From positions 1 to 29,485 of IMG/VR virus record IMGVR_UViG_3300030116_004030: a stretch of DNA of 29,485 nt; one strand, written 5' to 3'. Both the position numbers and the translations under genes were made by a program. Source of the DNA: a virus. Below the pieces are notes generated by a model that was not told the origin of the DNA, did not search any database, and worked only from the letters and a program-made list of their open reading frames with translations. Positions 7,369 to 18,733 of the stretch are shown in pieces; position 1 is the stretch's first letter, and each line of letters opens with the position of its first letter.

Positions 7369-8562
7369 CTATGGAGTTTCTAGTGCTGTTTTAGCAGTGC
7401 TAAATGTACCATCAATTATACCTAATGGTAAATAAGTAGCAAGTGCTATTCTCTCTTGACATCTTACAGTTACGAAACCATCTCTGATGTTTGTTCCATC
7501 TTCTCTATGGAATGAAACAGCAAGATTTTCTCTAATCCATAATTGGCAAGAATTGAAATCACCAACTAAGAATGAACCAGCATTAACTTCATTGTTAATG
7601 ATTACTGGTACACCCATAAATGATGGTTGTAAACCTTGATAAACTTGATCTTTTAAATATCTTGACTGGCTATCCTTAAGTAATAAAATCTTATGGAAAT
7701 CAGTTGGATTTAAAAGAATGTAGTTTGGCTTGTAGTTAGATAGAGCTAACTGGTTGATTGCAGCTACTAATACATCAAATTCATTTGCACTATCAACTGA
7801 TTGATAGAATGCACCTGATGATGATGTGTCAAAGTTAGTACCTGAATTGTATAAACCATTTAGGTTTGGTGCTACACCATTACCACCAAGAATTTGGTCA
7901 TCTTCAACTTCTAATAGTTTTGCTGGTACTCTGTTAGAAATGTAGCTTGTTAATTGAGCTGTATCATTTAACATTTCATCACTGATTCTGAGATAGGTCC
8001 CAATCTTCTCTACATTAACAGAAGTAGCAGTCATATCAAAGTCAGTTTGACCTAGTGTTGATCCTTCATTAGCAGCAGCAGCACCATTAGAATATCCTGA
8101 TTCTTTTACGAATCTAACAACATCAGAACCAGTTGAACCATTAGGAATGATTTGTCTCATGTTCTGTGGTCGGTTAGGATCGAATTTAAATCCTGGAACC
8201 CTGTCGGCTGCTATAACTTCTCCTGAGAAATCTGCACCTGTAGTCATGTCAGCTTTAATTTCAAATTTAGCTGCACTTGTATTACCCTTTACTAAATTTT
8301 CAATAGCACCCTCATTGATTGCTTTTGTCAAGTTAGTTTTGAAATTTTTTGATTCATTCTTTTTTTCAAACATTTTTTTGTTTTCAACTTCGAATGCATC
8401 AAATCTTTCGTTAAATTTTTTAGTGAGGTTATCAATCTCTCCTTTAAGAGCTGAATCTGCCTTACCATTTGCACTTTCTAGTGCTTGTCCTGTAGCTTTC
8501 TCAATCTTTTCATCAATGATGTTTCCTAATTGATCTAGCTGATTTTTAACATTTTCATCCAT
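7369..8562 (-). CDS. Major capsid protein, HK97 fold
   Basis: The 397-residue product has a charged coiled-coil N-terminus (residues 1 to about 100, MDENVKNQLDQLGNIIDEKI onward), which matches the delta/scaffold domain of HK97-type capsid proteins. From about residue 105 the phage_capsid pattern follows, including DVVRFVKESGYSNGAAAANE, INQLALSNYKPNYILLNPTD, GVPVIINNEV and a final RIALATYLPLGIIDGTF. The prohead protease is encoded immediately upstream (10-base gap), so removal of the N-terminal domain during maturation is expected, probably between residues 100 and 130. A strong terminator follows. The family assignment is firm; the cleavage site is inferred. Confidence 0.93.
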   Translation of the reverse strand: MDENVKNQLDQLGNIIDEKIEKATGQALESANGKADSALKGEIDNLTKKFNERFDAFEVENKKMFEKKNESKNFKTNLTKAINEGAIENLVKGNTSAAKFEIKADMTTGADFSGEVIAADRVPGFKFDPNRPQNMRQIIPNGSTGSDVVRFVKESGYSNGAAAANEGSTLGQTDFDMTATSVNVEKIGTYLRISDEMLNDTAQLTSYISNRVPAKLLEVEDDQILGGNGVAPNLNGLYNSGTNFDTSSSGAFYQSVDSANEFDVLVAAINQLALSNYKPNYILLNPTDFHKILLLKDSQSRYLKDQVYQGLQPSFMGVPVIINNEVNAGSFLVGDFNSCQLWIRENLAVSFHREDGTNIRDGFVTVRCQERIALATYLPLGIIDGTFSTAKTALETP

Positions 8563-8572
8563 TTTTAGAAAA

Positions 8573-9253
8573 TTATTTTAAATTATTCAACAAATATTTA
8601 TAAACATCAAACTCAGATTTTTCTTCTACTGGCTCAGTGATTTCAAAAATCGGCTGAGTAGCATCTATGAACAAAGATTTTAGTTTGTATATTTCTGCTT
8701 CTATGGCATATCCCATATCATCTGAGATATTACCCTTTCTGATTAGCTTAGATAAATTATCATATCTTTTATAGACACCTTCTAAATCAGTAGTGCCTTT
8801 GACATCCATTATTTTAGCTTGGTCATTTGCTGCTAGAGTAACAGCAGAGATTTCATATAGCTTTACTTCTTTTATCTCTCTGTAATCACCTTTATCTTCT
8901 TTTACTATTGGTAATATACCTACAGAGTTTTCTGTAATAACACCAGCTTTCATTAATTCAATTATATCTTTACCTAATGATGTTTTAGGAATGGTAGCAG
9001 TAAAAACCAAACCTTTTTCATCTTCATATAATTCATCCATTTTACCAATGGGTTGCATCATATTATGTTGGTATAAGTATTTTACTCTATGGCCATTTTC
9101 TTCAATTGTCTTTTGATAAGCTCCTTTTCTAATTATATCTTTATCTGAATCAACATTGTCGAAATATGAACCATATCCTTTGACAATATTTTTATCTTCA
9201 TCTATGTCGCTTATAATTTCACCAAGTGGTGCAGTTTTGTAAATAAAATCCAT
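8573..9253 (-). CDS. Prohead protease, HK97 / S78 family
   Basis: This 226-residue protein has the S78 core: VKGYGSYFDNVDSDKDIIRK, then YLYQHNMMQPIG with catalytic His63, ITENSVGILP with Ser110, and KLYEISAVTLAAN with the acidic residue Glu134 typical of the triad. The enzyme removes the scaffold domain of the capsid protein inside the prohead. The C-terminal 60 residues are helical and acidic, as in the self-cleaved part of the family. The start at 9253 is preceded by the recurrent promoter-like box at 9262-9282. Confidence 0.9.
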   Translation of the reverse strand: MDFIYKTAPLGEIISDIDEDKNIVKGYGSYFDNVDSDKDIIRKGAYQKTIEENGHRVKYLYQHNMMQPIGKMDELYEDEKGLVFTATIPKTSLGKDIIELMKAGVITENSVGILPIVKEDKGDYREIKEVKLYEISAVTLAANDQAKIMDVKGTTDLEGVYKRYDNLSKLIRKGNISDDMGYAIEAEIYKLKSLFIDATQPIFEITEPVEEKSEFDVYKYLLNNLK

Positions 9254-9288: not shown

Positions 9289-9492
9289 TTACTTATTTCT
9301 TAGTAATATTTCTTCTAATGGTTCACCTTCTTCAAATACAATATTGTTATCTTGGTCAGGTAAAGGTTTATTATGTTTGTTATCAAACAACACTTGATTT
9401 GGAATACCTTTAGGAAAAGCTCTACATCCACCAGCAAGTTCTTGGAAATGTTTACATCTAATACAAATAAAATTTTCTTGTCTATTTTCCAT
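9289..9492 (-). CDS. Small Cys-containing protein near MuF (67 aa)
   Basis: The product begins MENRQENFICIRCKHFQELA and has Cys10, Cys13, His15 and Cys23, followed by FPKGIPNQV, then an acidic end with NNIVFEEGE. The CxxCxH...GCRAFPxGIP layout suggests a tiny metal-binding knuckle. I recall similar proteins in phages and bacterial defence-like loci, always unannotated. The ATG lies inside the end of the MuF gene (11-base overlap). The role is unknown, but the position suggests a head-related or cargo function. Confidence 0.65.
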   Translation of the reverse strand: MENRQENFICIRCKHFQELAGGCRAFPKGIPNQVLFDNKHNKPLPDQDNNIVFEEGEPLEEILLRNK

Positions 9493-11095
9493 AATATTTT
9501 TCTATTAATTGTCCAACTTCAATTGCATACTTACTTGGTGAAGAACTTAAATGATATTCAGTAAATGCTTCTGCAAAAAATTCATCAGCATTTGTTGATG
9601 CATATCTACCTAAAAATATATCATTAAAAACAACATGATTATCTGCTTCCCTTAATGTAATTAATTCTGTCTTATATCTCTCTCTAATTTTAGTCAGATC
9701 GGCCCAAAATCTTTTACCAGGTGTACCCAAATTTAATACAAATTCTTTTTGTGCTGTATTAGTTATAGTTAACAAATGGGCCATTTCATGAACTGTAGTT
9801 GATAGATAATCCTTATCAGGATCAACATGAGAATTGAATCTTCTATCAAATTTACCTATCATGTTTGATTCATGCATCCTTACCCTTGAATTTCTTGTAT
9901 TAAATGGTGAACCTAAGTTTATAACTTTTGTTTTACCTGATAATCTACTTGATTTTATATAACCAATAAATCTTTTGCCTGACCTAAACATTAATTGTAC
10001 TTCTGCATCATTATGATATGTCGCATAATTATATTTTTTCATAAGAGATTTTATTTGTGATTGTATCTCATTATATTCTTTTAAACTTCTTTTAGTTGAT
10101 AGTTGTAGTTTATTTATTTTTAATCCTACTTCTTCAAAGGTTTCTTTTATTTGTGTCCTAAATTGATTTAATGTAGTAGCAACACCTTCTACCAATGCAT
10201 CACCAGCAGTGGCAATAGTTTGTACTACAGTGTTGGTAATTGTTTCTAAACTAAAACTAGGTATTCTTGATTCTCCTATACCTACACCTATATCAGATAT
10301 TTCAGTTATTGGTACAGCACCTTCATCTGGTATTGTAATCATTCTACATCTACAATTAACAGTATTCTTTGCAGAACCTTCTCCAGGTCGCATTATTTCT
10401 TCTCCATTAACTAAAAATGGTTCTCCCATTCTTCTTGTTTGGCCATTAACTGATTGATGCCAATTTCTTACTCTTGCATCTCCCATAGTAACCCATTGCT
10501 TGGATAATTGATCTTCCGAAAACATTGTCTTACTTGATTCTTCTACTGCATAGTTAGATGCTCTTGTGCTTTCTGTTCTTACTAATCTTCTTGCTTGGTA
10601 ATCTGAATATTGTCTAAAGTTCTTTCTAAGTATTCTAGCTTTTTCTCTTTCTCCTAATCTCATAAAGTCAGGGTCCTTCATTAACCTAGATGTTAGTTTA
10701 ATTAATGAAGTTTTAGCTGTACCTGAAACAAGTGGAGCATTATAAGCTGCAATCAATGAACCATAAGTTGAAAAAGCATTTGTCCATTTAGGAGTAAATG
10801 GTTTAGGATCAGCTTTCTTATGATACTTTTCAAATGATCTGAAATACCAATTAGCAATGTGCAAACCAATATCAACATATAGTTGTTGGTATTTCTTTGT
10901 TATATCTTCTACTCTAAATAGATTATCATAACCAGTAGCACCAGTATCTAAAAAGTTTTGTACTCCTTTGAAGTAATTATCTTGATAAAACTTTCTAATT
11001 GAGGGTGTTACTTTCCTTTCTATTGCATCTACTTTAGAATCAAACTCTTTTACATATTTGTTTGATGTAAAATCTTTTATAGTAGTAACAAGCAT
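9482..11095 (-). CDS. MuF-like minor head protein with C-terminal HExxH zincin-like domain
   Basis: The 537-residue protein has a helical N-terminal third, then the Mu protein F domain at about 145-255 (RRLVRTESTRASNY, WVTMGDARVRNWHQ, and NTVNCRC at 244-250). MuF proteins attach near the portal and are packaged in the head. After a linker, the C-terminal 110 residues contain TTVHEMAHLLTI with HEMAH at 436-440. Near residues 500-512 comes STNADEFFAEAFTEY, which can supply the third ligand (Glu505 or Glu509). This is the layout of gluzincin metallopeptidases. C-terminal effector domains on MuF proteins are known as a polymorphic toxin-like group. Here the enzyme may be injected with the DNA. 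The activity is inferred. Confidence 0.85.
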   Translation of the reverse strand: MLVTTIKDFTSNKYVKEFDSKVDAIERKVTPSIRKFYQDNYFKGVQNFLDTGATGYDNLFRVEDITKKYQQLYVDIGLHIANWYFRSFEKYHKKADPKPFTPKWTNAFSTYGSLIAAYNAPLVSGTAKTSLIKLTSRLMKDPDFMRLGEREKARILRKNFRQYSDYQARRLVRTESTRASNYAVEESSKTMFSEDQLSKQWVTMGDARVRNWHQSVNGQTRRMGEPFLVNGEEIMRPGEGSAKNTVNCRCRMITIPDEGAVPITEISDIGVGIGESRIPSFSLETITNTVVQTIATAGDALVEGVATTLNQFRTQIKETFEEVGLKINKLQLSTKRSLKEYNEIQSQIKSLMKKYNYATYHNDAEVQLMFRSGKRFIGYIKSSRLSGKTKVINLGSPFNTRNSRVRMHESNMIGKFDRRFNSHVDPDKDYLSTTVHEMAHLLTITNTAQKEFVLNLGTPGKRFWADLTKIRERYKTELITLREADNHVVFNDIFLGRYASTNADEFFAEAFTEYHLSSSPSKYAIEVGQLIEKYYGK

Positions 11096-13344
11096 TATTC
11101 ATTATTTTCTAATTGACCAAGTTTTCTTTGTGCATACGATAACATACTTTGACCACCCCAACCTAAAAATGCAACATAACCTTTGTCTTTCCAAGGTGTA
11201 TCTCTATAATCAGGATTTATTTTATTATATCCACCACCCTTAGTTCTTGATAGAAAACTAAAAGTTCTTTTTAAGGTTGATAGTGAAAGTTTTTCTCTTG
11301 CAATCAATTGATTCATTCTTGCCAATCCAACATTTGTCATTCCATCAACTTCAGCTCTACCATATTTATCAATCCAATTCTTTACTCTCTTGGCATTGTT
11401 TGTTGCTGATTGTGGATAATCATCATATCCTTCTGCTTTAGCTTCTTTCTTACTACTTAATGGATGGCCCTTTGGTAATAAATCTGTATCATGCTTACCA
11501 CTTCTAAATCTACCATTTCTTAAAGCATAAAGGAAAGAATTACATCTGGCATATGCCCATTGGTCGCTACTTGTAACACTTGGTCGTACACTACTTGGGT
11601 TTGTGTTATATGCACCTACACCCCTTCTAAATACAGCTTTTAAAGTTCTTAGATTTGTTTTTTGCCACGATTTAGAAACCTTCTCGTTATGATCTTCTAC
11701 TTTTTTTTTTAAACCTTTTTCTACAGTTGCAGATACCGATTTATCTTCATCTTCATCATCTTTGTGTGGTTTACCATAATGATACTTATCGTTCTCTACA
11801 GCTTCCATGTATTCATCATGTGTTTTGAATGGCATATATACTTCTTGGCCATCATAAGAATGAGAATGGCTACCAGAACCACCAAGCTCTCTAGCTCTTG
11901 ATTCTGCTTCTTCTTGTGTAGTGAACACATCTGTCATTCCAGGAACTTTTGCTTTGTTTAACATCTTTTCCATATCAGGTTCATCAAGGTTTATATCAAC
12001 AACTGGTACATCAATATCTTGATTATCTATTGGTAAAAGATTTGCTGGGAAATAATAATCATTCATAGATGGTGTATCCATATCATGGTCATAACTCATA
12101 GCTGATCTTTTCTCATTAGGTGTTAGCCACCATGCCTTTGACATTTGATCCACAATCTTATCTGTTTCTTCTTGTAATTCTGGTATAACAGAGAAATCAT
12201 ATTCAATACAAATATCTTCTCCATATTTAGGGGCCAACCATCTATTTAATTCATCTTGTATCTTTTGCAATTCAGGTATTACACAATTCTGATATAATGC
12301 CTTCTTTGCTTCTTTCATGTTATTATAGGTACTTGATTCAGTATTATTGAGAAGTTGTACAGGTACATTAAAAATATTACATAAATCTTTAATAGATGCA
12401 TTATATTGTTCTATAAGAGATAAATCAGCAGTTGATAAACCAAAGTTTACCCATGATAATTTCTTAGGTGTTATGATAACATCACCAGCATGACTGGAAC
12501 CTTGATGTTGCCTTCTAAACTTATCTTTTAGTTGTTGAGCTTGTACCTCATTTAAATCTCCTTCTTCACTCATTAAGATACCTCTACTGGTTTGATTTTG
12601 CAAGAATTTAACACCAGTTTCTACTGCTTCGTTGTTTGTAGTCATTGACCTCATACCAGCTTTAAGTGGTGATTGGCCATACATATGTGAACCTGAACCA
12701 TCGTAATGGGGATTAAAATCCTTTATATGCAACATATCATCTGCTTCTATTCTATATATACCATTATACTCAATTGTATAGTAATCTACTGGTTTCATTA
12801 ATCCACCAGTATTTATTTCAACAACATGAGATGGCATAACATATAATTCTGTGTATTTACCTACATTTTCACCTGTATCTGGACCTATACCATAAACATA
12901 TCTATTCCCAGTTAACTTACCAAAAGCCACAAGCTCAGATATAAAAGATGCATAAGATTGAGATGGATTTGGTCGTTCCATTAACTTATGTAATTCTGTA
13001 TGTTGTAATTCTTCTAATGCATGACTTTTCAATAGGTTAGCTTTATACATTACAGATGAATCAGCAATACCAGAAGATAATGCCTTATAGCTCTTATACT
13101 TACTTTCATTTACTTTTCTATAAATGTGAAATGGTATTGTAGATGCAGCTTTGGTTATGATATTAATAAGTGAATATACAGTTGCATTTTTTCTATACCC
13201 TTCATCAATATAAGTATTGTCATTATCAGGGTTCCAAAGTATAGAATTACCTAAATAATTGTATATAGCTCTGTTATACTGTTCATTGGTTTGCTGTGAT
13301 TTATTTGTAATTAAGTATCTTAACCTATCGAAGAATGATGCCAT
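11095..13344 (-). CDS. Portal protein, HK97 type, with long C-terminal extension (749 aa)
   Basis: Residues 1 to about 430 are a standard portal: RKNATVYSLINIITKAASTI, LMERPNPSQSYASF, GNRYVYGIG, MYGQSPLKAGMRSM and IKDLCNIFNVPVQLLNN. HK97-type portals usually end near 400-450 residues. Three additions follow. The first is a short module with EAESRARELGGSGSHSHSYD (about 475-510). The second is a basic module with RTLKAVFRRGVGAYNTNP and HDTDLLPKGHPLSS (about 565-640). The third is a last module with NVGLARMNQLIAREKLSLST and AFLGWGGQSMLSYAQRK (about 675-745). I recall such modules on portals or proteases of marine phages; their function is unknown. A run of ten A bases lies at codons 545-548, between the first and second modules. 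The gene overlaps MuF by one base. Confidence 0.88.
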   Translation of the reverse strand: MASFFDRLRYLITNKSQQTNEQYNRAIYNYLGNSILWNPDNDNTYIDEGYRKNATVYSLINIITKAASTIPFHIYRKVNESKYKSYKALSSGIADSSVMYKANLLKSHALEELQHTELHKLMERPNPSQSYASFISELVAFGKLTGNRYVYGIGPDTGENVGKYTELYVMPSHVVEINTGGLMKPVDYYTIEYNGIYRIEADDMLHIKDFNPHYDGSGSHMYGQSPLKAGMRSMTTNNEAVETGVKFLQNQTSRGILMSEEGDLNEVQAQQLKDKFRRQHQGSSHAGDVIITPKKLSWVNFGLSTADLSLIEQYNASIKDLCNIFNVPVQLLNNTESSTYNNMKEAKKALYQNCVIPELQKIQDELNRWLAPKYGEDICIEYDFSVIPELQEETDKIVDQMSKAWWLTPNEKRSAMSYDHDMDTPSMNDYYFPANLLPIDNQDIDVPVVDINLDEPDMEKMLNKAKVPGMTDVFTTQEEAESRARELGGSGSHSHSYDGQEVYMPFKTHDEYMEAVENDKYHYGKPHKDDEDEDKSVSATVEKGLKKKVEDHNEKVSKSWQKTNLRTLKAVFRRGVGAYNTNPSSVRPSVTSSDQWAYARCNSFLYALRNGRFRSGKHDTDLLPKGHPLSSKKEAKAEGYDDYPQSATNNAKRVKNWIDKYGRAEVDGMTNVGLARMNQLIAREKLSLSTLKRTFSFLSRTKGGGYNKINPDYRDTPWKDKGYVAFLGWGGQSMLSYAQRKLGQLENNE

Positions 13345-13389: not shown

Positions 13390-14574
13390 TTATACCACAT
13401 AGAAATTGTATCTATTTTTCCATCTACTATAAACAGCGTATCTAAGGGCATCTGCTGTATGGTCATTACCTGATATGGGTTTGTTAATTATTGTTCCATC
13501 TTTTAATTGATCCCAAAAATATGTTCTTTGCTCTCTTTGAATGTTTTTAGATTCACTTGATACAAATACTTCAAACTCTTTAATTAAACTAATACCAGCA
13601 TTTATACTACCTTGGCCCTTAATTGCTCCTTTTGCTAAACAACCCATTTGTCTTAGTTCTTCAATACTTTTAGGTTCTGCACTATCACAATAAGATAATA
13701 TATCATTAAGATTGTTTTGTTTTAAGAAGTTTGCTAAATCTCTATTGGTCATTCCTGTTTGATATAACCATTCATGCACATATAGTTTGTCTCCAACCTT
13801 ACCAACTTCTAATACTACTGCTGGATCATTTGTATATCCAAAGTCAATACCAATGACCTTATCATCTATATCAGGGAAATCACTCAATGGTATATATTTC
13901 CAACCTTTAAATATTTGTCTATCTGAAAACACAGCTCTCTTACCTTCTCCGAATACTCTCCAATAATCAGGGTCCTTATATCTTAATCTCTCTATTTCAT
14001 CTACTGTTTCTTTAGGTAAAAACTTATTGTCTTTGTATGTAGATAAAAATAAATCAGCATCATCACGATCTGCTAAATCATAAAGGTAATGTATGGGATC
14101 AGATGGGTTGAAATCTATAAGTATGTATTTTCTAGTTCTAAGGGCCAATTGTCTAAAATCTTCTTCAAAACATTCATTACCCTCATTCATCCATAGTATA
14201 TCTCTAGCACTACCTCTTATCTTTTGAGGATCATCAGTAGAAAAGAACTCTAATGTATGGCCATTGTATTCAAATGTATTATCTGTCTTATTATGAACTC
14301 CCTGGAAGTATATACCCAAACCCTTGGCAATATGTTGGAAATCCCTTAGAACTGATCTTTTGAGTGCTGGTAATGTCTTTCTTACTACACTAATAGTCAA
14401 TGGTTCTTTTTCTGTAGTCATAAGATATAAGCAATACTGCATCAAACTCCATGACTTTCCACTTCTAGTTCCACCTTGGAATATTCTTAATCTTTTGTCT
14501 GAATTGGCTGCCTGATAGAATTGCTTATTACAAAACTCTTTTATTCTTGTTCTTTGTCCTTGGCTGGTGTCCAT
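13390..14574 (-). CDS. terL: Terminase large subunit
   Basis: The 394-residue protein has the packaging ATPase motifs: Walker A GGTRSGKS (34-41), Walker B DILWMNEGNE (125-134), and the coupling region around 152-160 (LIDFNPSDP). The RNase H-like nuclease domain follows with IGIDFGYTND (Asp244), SYCDSAEP (Asp297) and NDHTADALRYAVY (Asp371/Asp375). The length and motif order fit the compact PBSX/Terminase_6-like group. It cuts concatemeric DNA and pumps it into the prohead. The start lies inside the small subunit gene (34-base overlap). Whether packaging is cos- or pac-type cannot be told from the sequence. Confidence 0.93.
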   Translation of the reverse strand: MDTSQGQRTRIKEFCNKQFYQAANSDKRLRIFQGGTRSGKSWSLMQYCLYLMTTEKEPLTISVVRKTLPALKRSVLRDFQHIAKGLGIYFQGVHNKTDNTFEYNGHTLEFFSTDDPQKIRGSARDILWMNEGNECFEEDFRQLALRTRKYILIDFNPSDPIHYLYDLADRDDADLFLSTYKDNKFLPKETVDEIERLRYKDPDYWRVFGEGKRAVFSDRQIFKGWKYIPLSDFPDIDDKVIGIDFGYTNDPAVVLEVGKVGDKLYVHEWLYQTGMTNRDLANFLKQNNLNDILSYCDSAEPKSIEELRQMGCLAKGAIKGQGSINAGISLIKEFEVFVSSESKNIQREQRTYFWDQLKDGTIINKPISGNDHTADALRYAVYSRWKNRYNFYVV

Positions 14575-15493: not shown

Positions 15494-16126
15494 TTAAAAT
15501 AATTCTGTTTGATTAACATTTTCTTTTTGTTTTATACCCATCACAGTATTTAATATTGTTTTGCCAGCTTCATAATCAACTAAGTTTCTTGCAATTTTTT
15601 GAACACTTTGTTTGCCTTTATATTTTCTAAAATCATAATCATGAAATTCACACCATTTATCAACCTCATTTTTTGATTCCATTATATTACATTTTCTTTC
15701 ATTTAAATTATTTGGCAATGTAAAGTTTGTCCAATATAAGTGCCTACCTTTTTTTTGAGCTGAAATTAATGGCTCATAATATGGTATTACATTTTCAACA
15801 ACAAATTTACCTTTAAACCATTTTTGCAAAAACAATATTTCTTGGTATAACTTCATATCAGGATAAACTGGTTTAGTAGTGCTTCTTCTTGCAAATCTTG
15901 ATCTACTATGTGTTGGACATGGTGGAGATGACCATATAAAGTCAAACTCTTTATAATGATCTAATAAATATTGATGAGCATCTGCTACAATAACTTCATC
16001 ATTTGGAAATCTTTCTTGATATAATTTAGCTAATTCATCATCCCATTCAACCGCTGTTATTTGATGTTCATTACCCCATTTATATCTATTACCCCCTAAA
16101 CAAGCATATAAGTTTAATATTTTCAT
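15494..16126 (-). CDS. Cytosine-C5 DNA methyltransferase-like protein, short form
   Basis: This 210-residue protein has motif I (NLYACLGGNRYKWG, 5-18), a motif II-like acidic site (AVEWDD) and a motif III-like ADAHQYL. Motif IV is SSPPCPTHSR with candidate catalytic Cys70, and motif VI is FVVENV with Glu111. An ordinary C5 enzyme has 300 or more residues, a target recognition region and a motif IX/X end. Here the part after motif VI is only about 95 residues, although it keeps GRHLYWTNF (motif VIII-like). I recall this short form as common in Bacteroidota phages. It may methylate phage DNA to evade restriction, or modify nucleotides. The target is unknown. Confidence 0.8.
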   Translation of the reverse strand: MKILNLYACLGGNRYKWGNEHQITAVEWDDELAKLYQERFPNDEVIVADAHQYLLDHYKEFDFIWSSPPCPTHSRSRFARRSTTKPVYPDMKLYQEILFLQKWFKGKFVVENVIPYYEPLISAQKKGRHLYWTNFTLPNNLNERKCNIMESKNEVDKWCEFHDYDFRKYKGKQSVQKIARNLVDYEAGKTILNTVMGIKQKENVNQTELF

Positions 16127-18313: not shown

Positions 18314-18733
18314 TTATTTTTTAAAAATTACTAGCATACTAGGTCGCATTGCTGGACCTGTTTTGCCATTTATGTCTATAAACTTAATTCTGCCTTTAAT
18401 AAATCTTAATTCAGCTTTATTATAACAGTATTCATGAAACCATTTTGTGTCTGTATTAGCAAAAACTAAAAAAACTATTAATTCAGCTTTTCCAAATTTT
18501 AATTCATGATTTGCTTTTTTTAACCAACCTAAAACATTAGAATATGGAGGATTTACAAAATTTCTTTTTCCCCATTCAATTTCTAAACCATTCCATTGAT
18601 TAATATCATGTTGAAATGGACATGGATCAAAATCAAAATTAAATTCTTTATTTAACTCATCATATAAATTTTTTGGTGTTTGCCAATGGTCAGTTTTTTT
18701 GCTTTGGAATAATTTTATTTGTTGCTTATTCAT
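18314..18733 (-). CDS. Phage DNA N6-adenine methyltransferase (Dam family)
   Basis: The 139-residue protein begins with a glutamine/lysine-rich leader, then DHWQTPKNLYDELNKEFNFD and FDPCPFQHD, the typical start of phage N-6-adenine methyltransferases (PF05869). The catalytic motif is NFVNPPYSN (NPPY at 60-63), and LIVFLVFANTDTKWFHEYCY follows. It transfers a methyl group from S-adenosylmethionine to adenine, probably protecting phage DNA from host restriction or regulating replication. The start codon overlaps the stop of the replication initiator gene by 4 bases. The target sequence is unknown. Confidence 0.9.
   Translation of the reverse strand: MNKQQIKLFQSKKTDHWQTPKNLYDELNKEFNFDFDPCPFQHDINQWNGLEIEWGKRNFVNPPYSNVLGWLKKANHELKFGKAELIVFLVFANTDTKWFHEYCYNKAELRFIKGRIKFIDINGKTGPAMRPSMLVIFKK

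Follow-up and report, generated by a model that had tools for sequence, protein, structure and literature searches.

The virus record IMGVR_UViG_3300030116_004030, a low-GC stretch of 29,485 bases analysed over its whole length (hereafter the window), encodes a MuF minor head protein of 537 amino acids (aa) fused to a C-terminal metallopeptidase domain, directly followed by the gene of a 67-aa Cys/His protein. We judge it very probable that this portal-vertex fusion is catalytically active as a zinc protease. On balance we favour, with some reserve, a virion-carried gluzincin-type protease effector that would act on the host and would be matched by a cognate small partner, most likely an inhibitor. 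The features needed for the argument are as follows.

9482..11095, minus strand: 537-aa MuF minor head protein ending in a metallopeptidase domain; open reading frame (ORF), Phage_Mu_F E 1.1e-10, head morphogenesis PHROGs
10337..10642, minus strand: MuF domain (PF04233), residues 152-253
about 9485..10144, minus strand: predicted zincin-type metallopeptidase domain, about residues 318-537; sub-threshold ATLF and M90 matches, AlphaFold model, PDB fold matches
9776..9790, minus strand: HEMAH, residues 436-440, expected to hold two zinc-binding His and the catalytic Glu; conserved
9602..9604, minus strand: Tyr498, expected transition-state Tyr, seven residues ahead of E505; conserved
9554..9586, minus strand: DEFFAEAFTEY, residues 504-514, with E505 as expected third zinc ligand and E509 also conserved
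9289..9492, minus strand: 67-aa CxxC...C...H protein, start codon overlapping the MuF stop by 11 nt; PHROG 33375, function unknown

The metallopeptidase domain

A previous interpretation made from the letters alone (the sequence-only reading) had proposed a MuF protein carrying an HExxH metallopeptidase domain, and PF04233 (42.7 bits against a cut-off of 29.6), HEMAH, DEFFAEAFTEY and Y498 are indeed all present on the minus strand. The interval that it gave, 9482..10000, lies within the gene but covers only the C-terminal third of the ORF; likewise, the domain is C-terminal as proposed, but its modelled extent is roughly double the ~110 residues assigned to it. Residues 498-514, translated from 9554-9604 on the minus strand, read YASTNADEFFAEAFTEY. 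Over all six frames, 77 stretches reach 60 aa or more, and HEMAH is the sole HExxH in them. When the 537-aa protein was shuffled, HExxH arose in 1.1% of the shuffles and HExxH with the spaced Y(6)E(3)E in 0.035%. An HExxH with a downstream Y-(6)-E is the spacing found in M34 peptidases.

No Pfam family matched the C-terminal domain above its cut-off: ATLF (PF07737) reached 17.7 and 19.4 bits against 27.4, M90 was likewise sub-threshold and no Mx match was returned for the window protein at the limit used. Searching the PDB with the single C-terminal sequence gave chance matches only, and a profile was required. The profile of 59 relatives had a lethal factor chain as its best PDB sequence match (E 0.004) and also matched a secreted double-domain protein from the clostridial Oceanirhabdus (L012, E 6e-11), which is itself above the Peptidase_Mx and Mx1 cut-offs. 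Weak Peptidase_Mx/Mx1 or M90/MtfA matches were obtained for some members of the protease family.

Residues 300-537 were modelled by AlphaFold with a pLDDT of 94.4 and a pTM of 0.92. Model helix 127-143 holds HExxH and helix 204-217 holds E505/E509, with Y498 just ahead of the latter; judged by these positions, the domain has the helix-borne HExxH and downstream Glu ligand of clan MA zincins. The 11 best PDB fold matches, weak individually, are all metallopeptidases (PPEP-1, PPEP-3, MtfA-type and Wss1), headed by PPEP-1 (E 0.07, TM 0.36-0.42), and the viral fold matches consist of head proteins of phages and of phage proteins labelled lethal factor or metalloprotease. As far as the helix positions show, the model gives no sign of the scattered His and Glu residues that would have spoken against the sequence-only reading. 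From the Pfam, profile, AlphaFold and fold-match results we assign the C-terminal domain to a divergent zincin, probably close to M34 and beyond the reach of Pfam models at cut-off.

Conservation and exchange of the domain

Relatives were collected by a pattern scan in which EF[FI]AEA[FW] and HExxH were used as alternatives. All the loci retrieved with EF[FI]AEA[FW] only kept HExxH, and the downstream Glu set was present in 27 of those retrieved with HExxH only, the five that failed being the distant L012 and four open frames truncated where their contig stops. H436, E437, H440, Y498, E505 and E509 are conserved among the relatives. Alignment A5 agrees with this conservation, and its invariance was not used as proof because its rows had been selected on the motif.

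The protease domain was found on unrelated MuF N-termini, and similar MuF N-termini in Flavobacterium 11b, PB15, Pq0 and P12026 belong to short MuF proteins that have no protease domain; the domain is exchanged between different head-protein chassis. In one locus (L038, 283-2607) it is fused to a portal-type protein of 775 aa instead of a plain MuF, and the small gene then follows. Among the annotated phages of the collection, a C-terminal domain that matches along most of its extent is confined to those infecting Flavobacterium.

The small Cys/His protein

The strongest part of the case, absent from the sequence-only reading, is the conserved small gene beside the protease. It begins within the last MuF codons (ATGGAAAATAG). 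No Pfam family was found for the 67-aa protein and no PDB fold match for its model. Its homologues share the pattern CxxC...C-x-AFPxGIP...H...Q and lie directly 3' of the protease in most relatives; C10, C13, C23, A25, H40 and Q47 are invariant in 26 sequences, and the CxxC...C...H pattern suggests a metal site.

A scan anchored on the small gene alone showed a protease gene (HExxH...E-x-x-[AC]-E) directly upstream in all 73 of the 73 loci with a visible upstream frame. Loss of HExxH in most homologues, which the sequence-only reading had taken as the sign of a wrong call, was thus seen neither here nor with the HExxH-free patterns. The small gene is adjacent in 55 of 65 non-redundant protease genes, once in convergent orientation on the opposite strand; this set takes in loci found through the small gene, and adjacency holds for about 20 of 30 among those found through the protease. 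The 10 protease genes that have no adjacent small gene belong to distant clades, and most have other small ORFs in that position. Related phages whose MuF has no protease domain carry no small gene. Searching 50,697 phage records (E < 1e-3) matched the small protein only to protease-MuF phages (lotta8) and to one other MuF phage. A Bacillota prophage also has the small gene together with the protease; there the MuF and protease frames are separated by a frameshift.

Several variants of this arrangement were observed. In the Bacillota prophage (L182, 4414-6268) the two frames overlap by about 50 nt and PHROG 1657 covers the junction, and the frameshift may be a sequencing error or programmed. 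Behind the distant MuF-protease genes of L074, L078, L083 and L087 lies the gene of another small protein, acidic and with the pattern ..SPYFV..NWHL..APEE..KEF..F, which may be the counterpart of the Cys/His protein in that clade. In L143 (2914-3248) the small gene is present twice in tandem after a MuF protein whose HExxH domain is divergent, and in Aeromonas caviae (L095, 5302-6165) the Cys/His domain forms the C-terminus of a 287-aa protein.

Joint divergence of the pair

Between the window and its close relative L016, most of the terminase-capsid region is 78-91% identical in nucleotides (68% in one 200-base bin), and identity goes down to 57-72% from about 10,000 to 9,400. Protein identity is 95% for the terminase, 89% for the portal, 88% for the MuF N-part, 52% for the protease domain, 70% for the small protein, 91% for the S78 prohead protease and 94% for the capsid protein. 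The divergence of the small protein lies in its N-terminal half (57 vs 87%). Recombination and fast protein evolution are indistinguishable as causes of this local divergence because synonymous sites are near saturation.

Across 26 phages, the distances of the protease and the small protein are still correlated after controlling for the MuF N-part (0.51, 0/2000 permutations), and the correlation between the MuF N-part and the small protein is weaker (0.18). Physical closeness adds to the protease/small-protein correlation, but the small protein is less strongly correlated (0.57 vs 0.73) with S78, whose gene flanks it on the opposite side. As the small protein diverges jointly with the protease domain and not with the MuF part, it fits a direct contact partner of the protease.

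Gene context and phage group

The neighbouring head genes of the window are listed below.

13390..14574, minus strand: large terminase (PF04466/PF17288)
11095..13344, minus strand: portal protein with a long C-terminal extension (PF04860, E 8.6e-60, residues 55-415)
8573..9253, minus strand: prohead serine protease S78, a dedicated maturation protease (PF04586, E 2.8e-28)
7369..8562, minus strand: HK97-type major capsid protein (PF05065, E 4.8e-35)

The MuF-protease gene is directly 3' of the portal gene, and the S78 protease and HK97-type capsid genes follow. The nearest relatives of the terminase are in Bacteroides phages (~40% identity). No tRNA or Rfam match was found in the window, and defence-system models explained neither the MuF-protease nor the small gene. 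The portal protein, of 749 aa, has more than 300 residues beyond its portal domain (415-749), with weak DUF3721, DUF5824 and PHROG 2859 matches, and the portal of the relative L003 aligns with it over only 576 residues; the extension is possibly another variable fused domain. Elsewhere in the window there are a short C5-cytosine methylase-like ORF of 210 aa (15494-16126), covering only the N-terminal part of its family, and a Dam-type adenine methylase (18314-18733).

No tyrosine or serine recombinase was found in any of the 23 larger contigs of the group, window included, many of these records being fragments. Phages lotta8-1 and lotta8-2, isolated as virulent, carry the protease and small-gene pair (PMC7077304); their host is Flavobacterium LMO8, and the label "structural protein" of lotta8 gp028 comes from sequence similarity and not from virion proteomics.

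Proposed role and alternative explanations

In the mechanism that we favour, the MuF-protease would be made late, a few copies would be packed at the portal, and the protein would enter the next host along with the DNA. Its C-terminal zinc endopeptidase, of gluzincin type and with a fold and active-site layout closest to the M34 group, would then cleave at least one host protein soon after infection begins. The 67-aa protein would be made right after the protease by translational coupling and would keep it inactive in the producing cell, most likely as an inhibitor. We consider delivery of the protease into the host likely, and give inhibition by the small protein an even chance. The inhibitor role is argued in part by analogy: the MuF toxins Bxa and Apk2 have been shown to be toxic, and adjacent small proteins neutralise them (PMC11699363; for Apk2 also PMC12226406).

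A number of observations weigh against this proposal. The PDB fold matches are weak one by one (E 0.07-0.64, TM about 0.2-0.44). A virulent phage has no lysogen for an immunity protein to protect. The small family is also not specific to the protease: on a plasmid of the cyanobacterium Oscillatoria (L094) it lies 3' of a polymorphic-toxin-like protein that ends in an ART-PolyVal domain, in a gut phage (L093) it is oriented convergently with a MuF gene whose C-terminus is of another kind, and in Bacillota it occurs in 8 of 399 genomes, mostly standing alone. An exclusive tie of the small gene to the protease, which we had considered, is weakened by these three contexts. The gut-phage MuF itself (L093, 185-1636) ends in a domain with a THNHPRG motif and no Pfam family.

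A broader form of the inhibitor proposal is more tentative: the pair would be a polymorphic protease-inhibitor module on the capsid portal of a probably virulent group in which no integrase was detected, and the small protein would belong to a broad-use inhibitor family guarding several unrelated phage and plasmid effectors. If so, the protease would be an injected weapon of proteolytic host takeover or anti-defence and not an inter-bacterial toxin.

Among the alternatives, the one that survives best, though we regard it as rather unlikely, is that the protease is injected while the small protein, instead of inhibiting it, is delivered with it as a cofactor, helps it to fold or to take up zinc, or serves phage and plasmid effectors in general as a partner. 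The putative metal site would suit such a role, as would the presence of the family beside the L094 and L093 effectors and alone in genomes, but its divergence with the protease domain is what a direct contact partner would show, and the published MuF toxins have adjacent inhibitors (PMC11699363).

Somewhat less probable is a role in assembly, in which the domain would cut a head protein inside the prohead, whether MuF or a different one, or free itself as a polyprotein-processing peptidase, with the small protein setting the timing. The gene does lie in the head module, and the zincins of phage polyvalent proteins have been proposed as processing peptidases (PMC5512222). An essential assembly role is nevertheless argued against because the phage has an S78 prohead protease of its own two genes further downstream and the short MuF proteins of Flavobacterium 11b, PB15, Pq0 and P12026 lack the domain; a fast-diverging domain beside conserved head genes is also unlike an assembly enzyme.

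We consider it improbable that the small gene belongs to the head module like any other gene and is linked to MuF by shared phage ancestry. Most loci do come from one broad phage group with syntenic head genes, but the related short-MuF phages lack the small gene, its adjacency persists across unrelated MuF N-termini, the portal chassis, the Bacillota prophage and one convergent case, and the search of 50,697 phage records matched nothing at E < 1e-3 beyond lotta8 and a single other MuF phage. Finally, a catalytically dead structural relic is scarcely credible, as no evidence in its favour was found and all catalytic positions are kept while most of the domain has diverged to about 20-40% identity.

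The interest of the favoured protease effector lies in its testability, since a compact two-gene module in dozens of phages, together with the lotta8/Flavobacterium LMO8 pair, gives access to injection by a virulent phage, to the targets and to the need for an inhibitor. The role of the small protein, which represents a widespread unnamed family, could be settled alongside.

Comparison with known systems

The fusion of MuF to a metallopeptidase is of a known kind, because such fusions have already been published among the MuF polymorphic toxins. These were defined in 2017 by Jamet et al., and that report (PMC5576092) states that 13% of MuF proteins carry toxin domains, that 20% of the 191 catalogued MuF toxins have a metallopeptidase domain, that a small ORF follows in 89%, and that the toxins are exclusive to temperate phages, mostly of Firmicutes, with none in virulent phages. 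MuF fusions are regarded as effectors that phages deliver. The sequence-only reading had called them known but barely tested; few have been tested, Bxa and Apk2 among them, and none of the tested ones described in the accessible literature is a protease.

The window pair resembles these toxins in its N-terminal MuF domain, variable enzymatic C-terminus, position after the portal gene and small ORF directly 3'. The variability of the C-terminus is evident from the identities to L016 (88% for the MuF N-part vs 52% for the protease) and from the unrelated N-termini and the portal chassis. The published toxins come from temperate phages, in contrast to the contigs described here, in which no recombinase was found (0/23, many of them fragments), and to the virulent lotta8; carriage by temperate phages is a distributional feature of MuF toxins and not their defining mechanism. 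The recurring Cys/His partner is a further difference, being unmentioned in the accessible MuF-toxin literature. New here are thus the phage group in which no recombinase was detected, the virulent isolates with the pair and the conserved Cys/His partner.

With the M34 peptidases (PPEP-1/PPEP-3 and the lethal-factor-type PF07737 ATLF) the domain shares HExxH followed by Y-(6)-E (H436-H440, Y498, E505), and weak fold matches and a sub-threshold Pfam match point to them as well. It differs from them in a Pfam score that does not reach the threshold (19.4 of 27.4 bits), in a TM of about 0.4, in its fusion to a capsid protein and in having no secretion signal. Peptidase_Mx/Mx1 (PF15887, PF15890) and M90/MtfA (PF06167) belong to the same zincin clan, and the distant homologue L012 is above the Mx and Mx1 cut-offs, whereas the window protein is below the M90 cut-off, gave no match to Mx within the limit applied and shows another architecture. 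Phage polyvalent proteins, too, often contain zincins (Iyer et al. 2017, PMC5512222), and these are likewise HExxH zincins in virion-delivered phage proteins and profile-linked to lethal factor. However, polyvalent proteins are giant multidomain proteins that their zincins are thought to process, while here a two-domain MuF protein is accompanied by a dedicated small gene.
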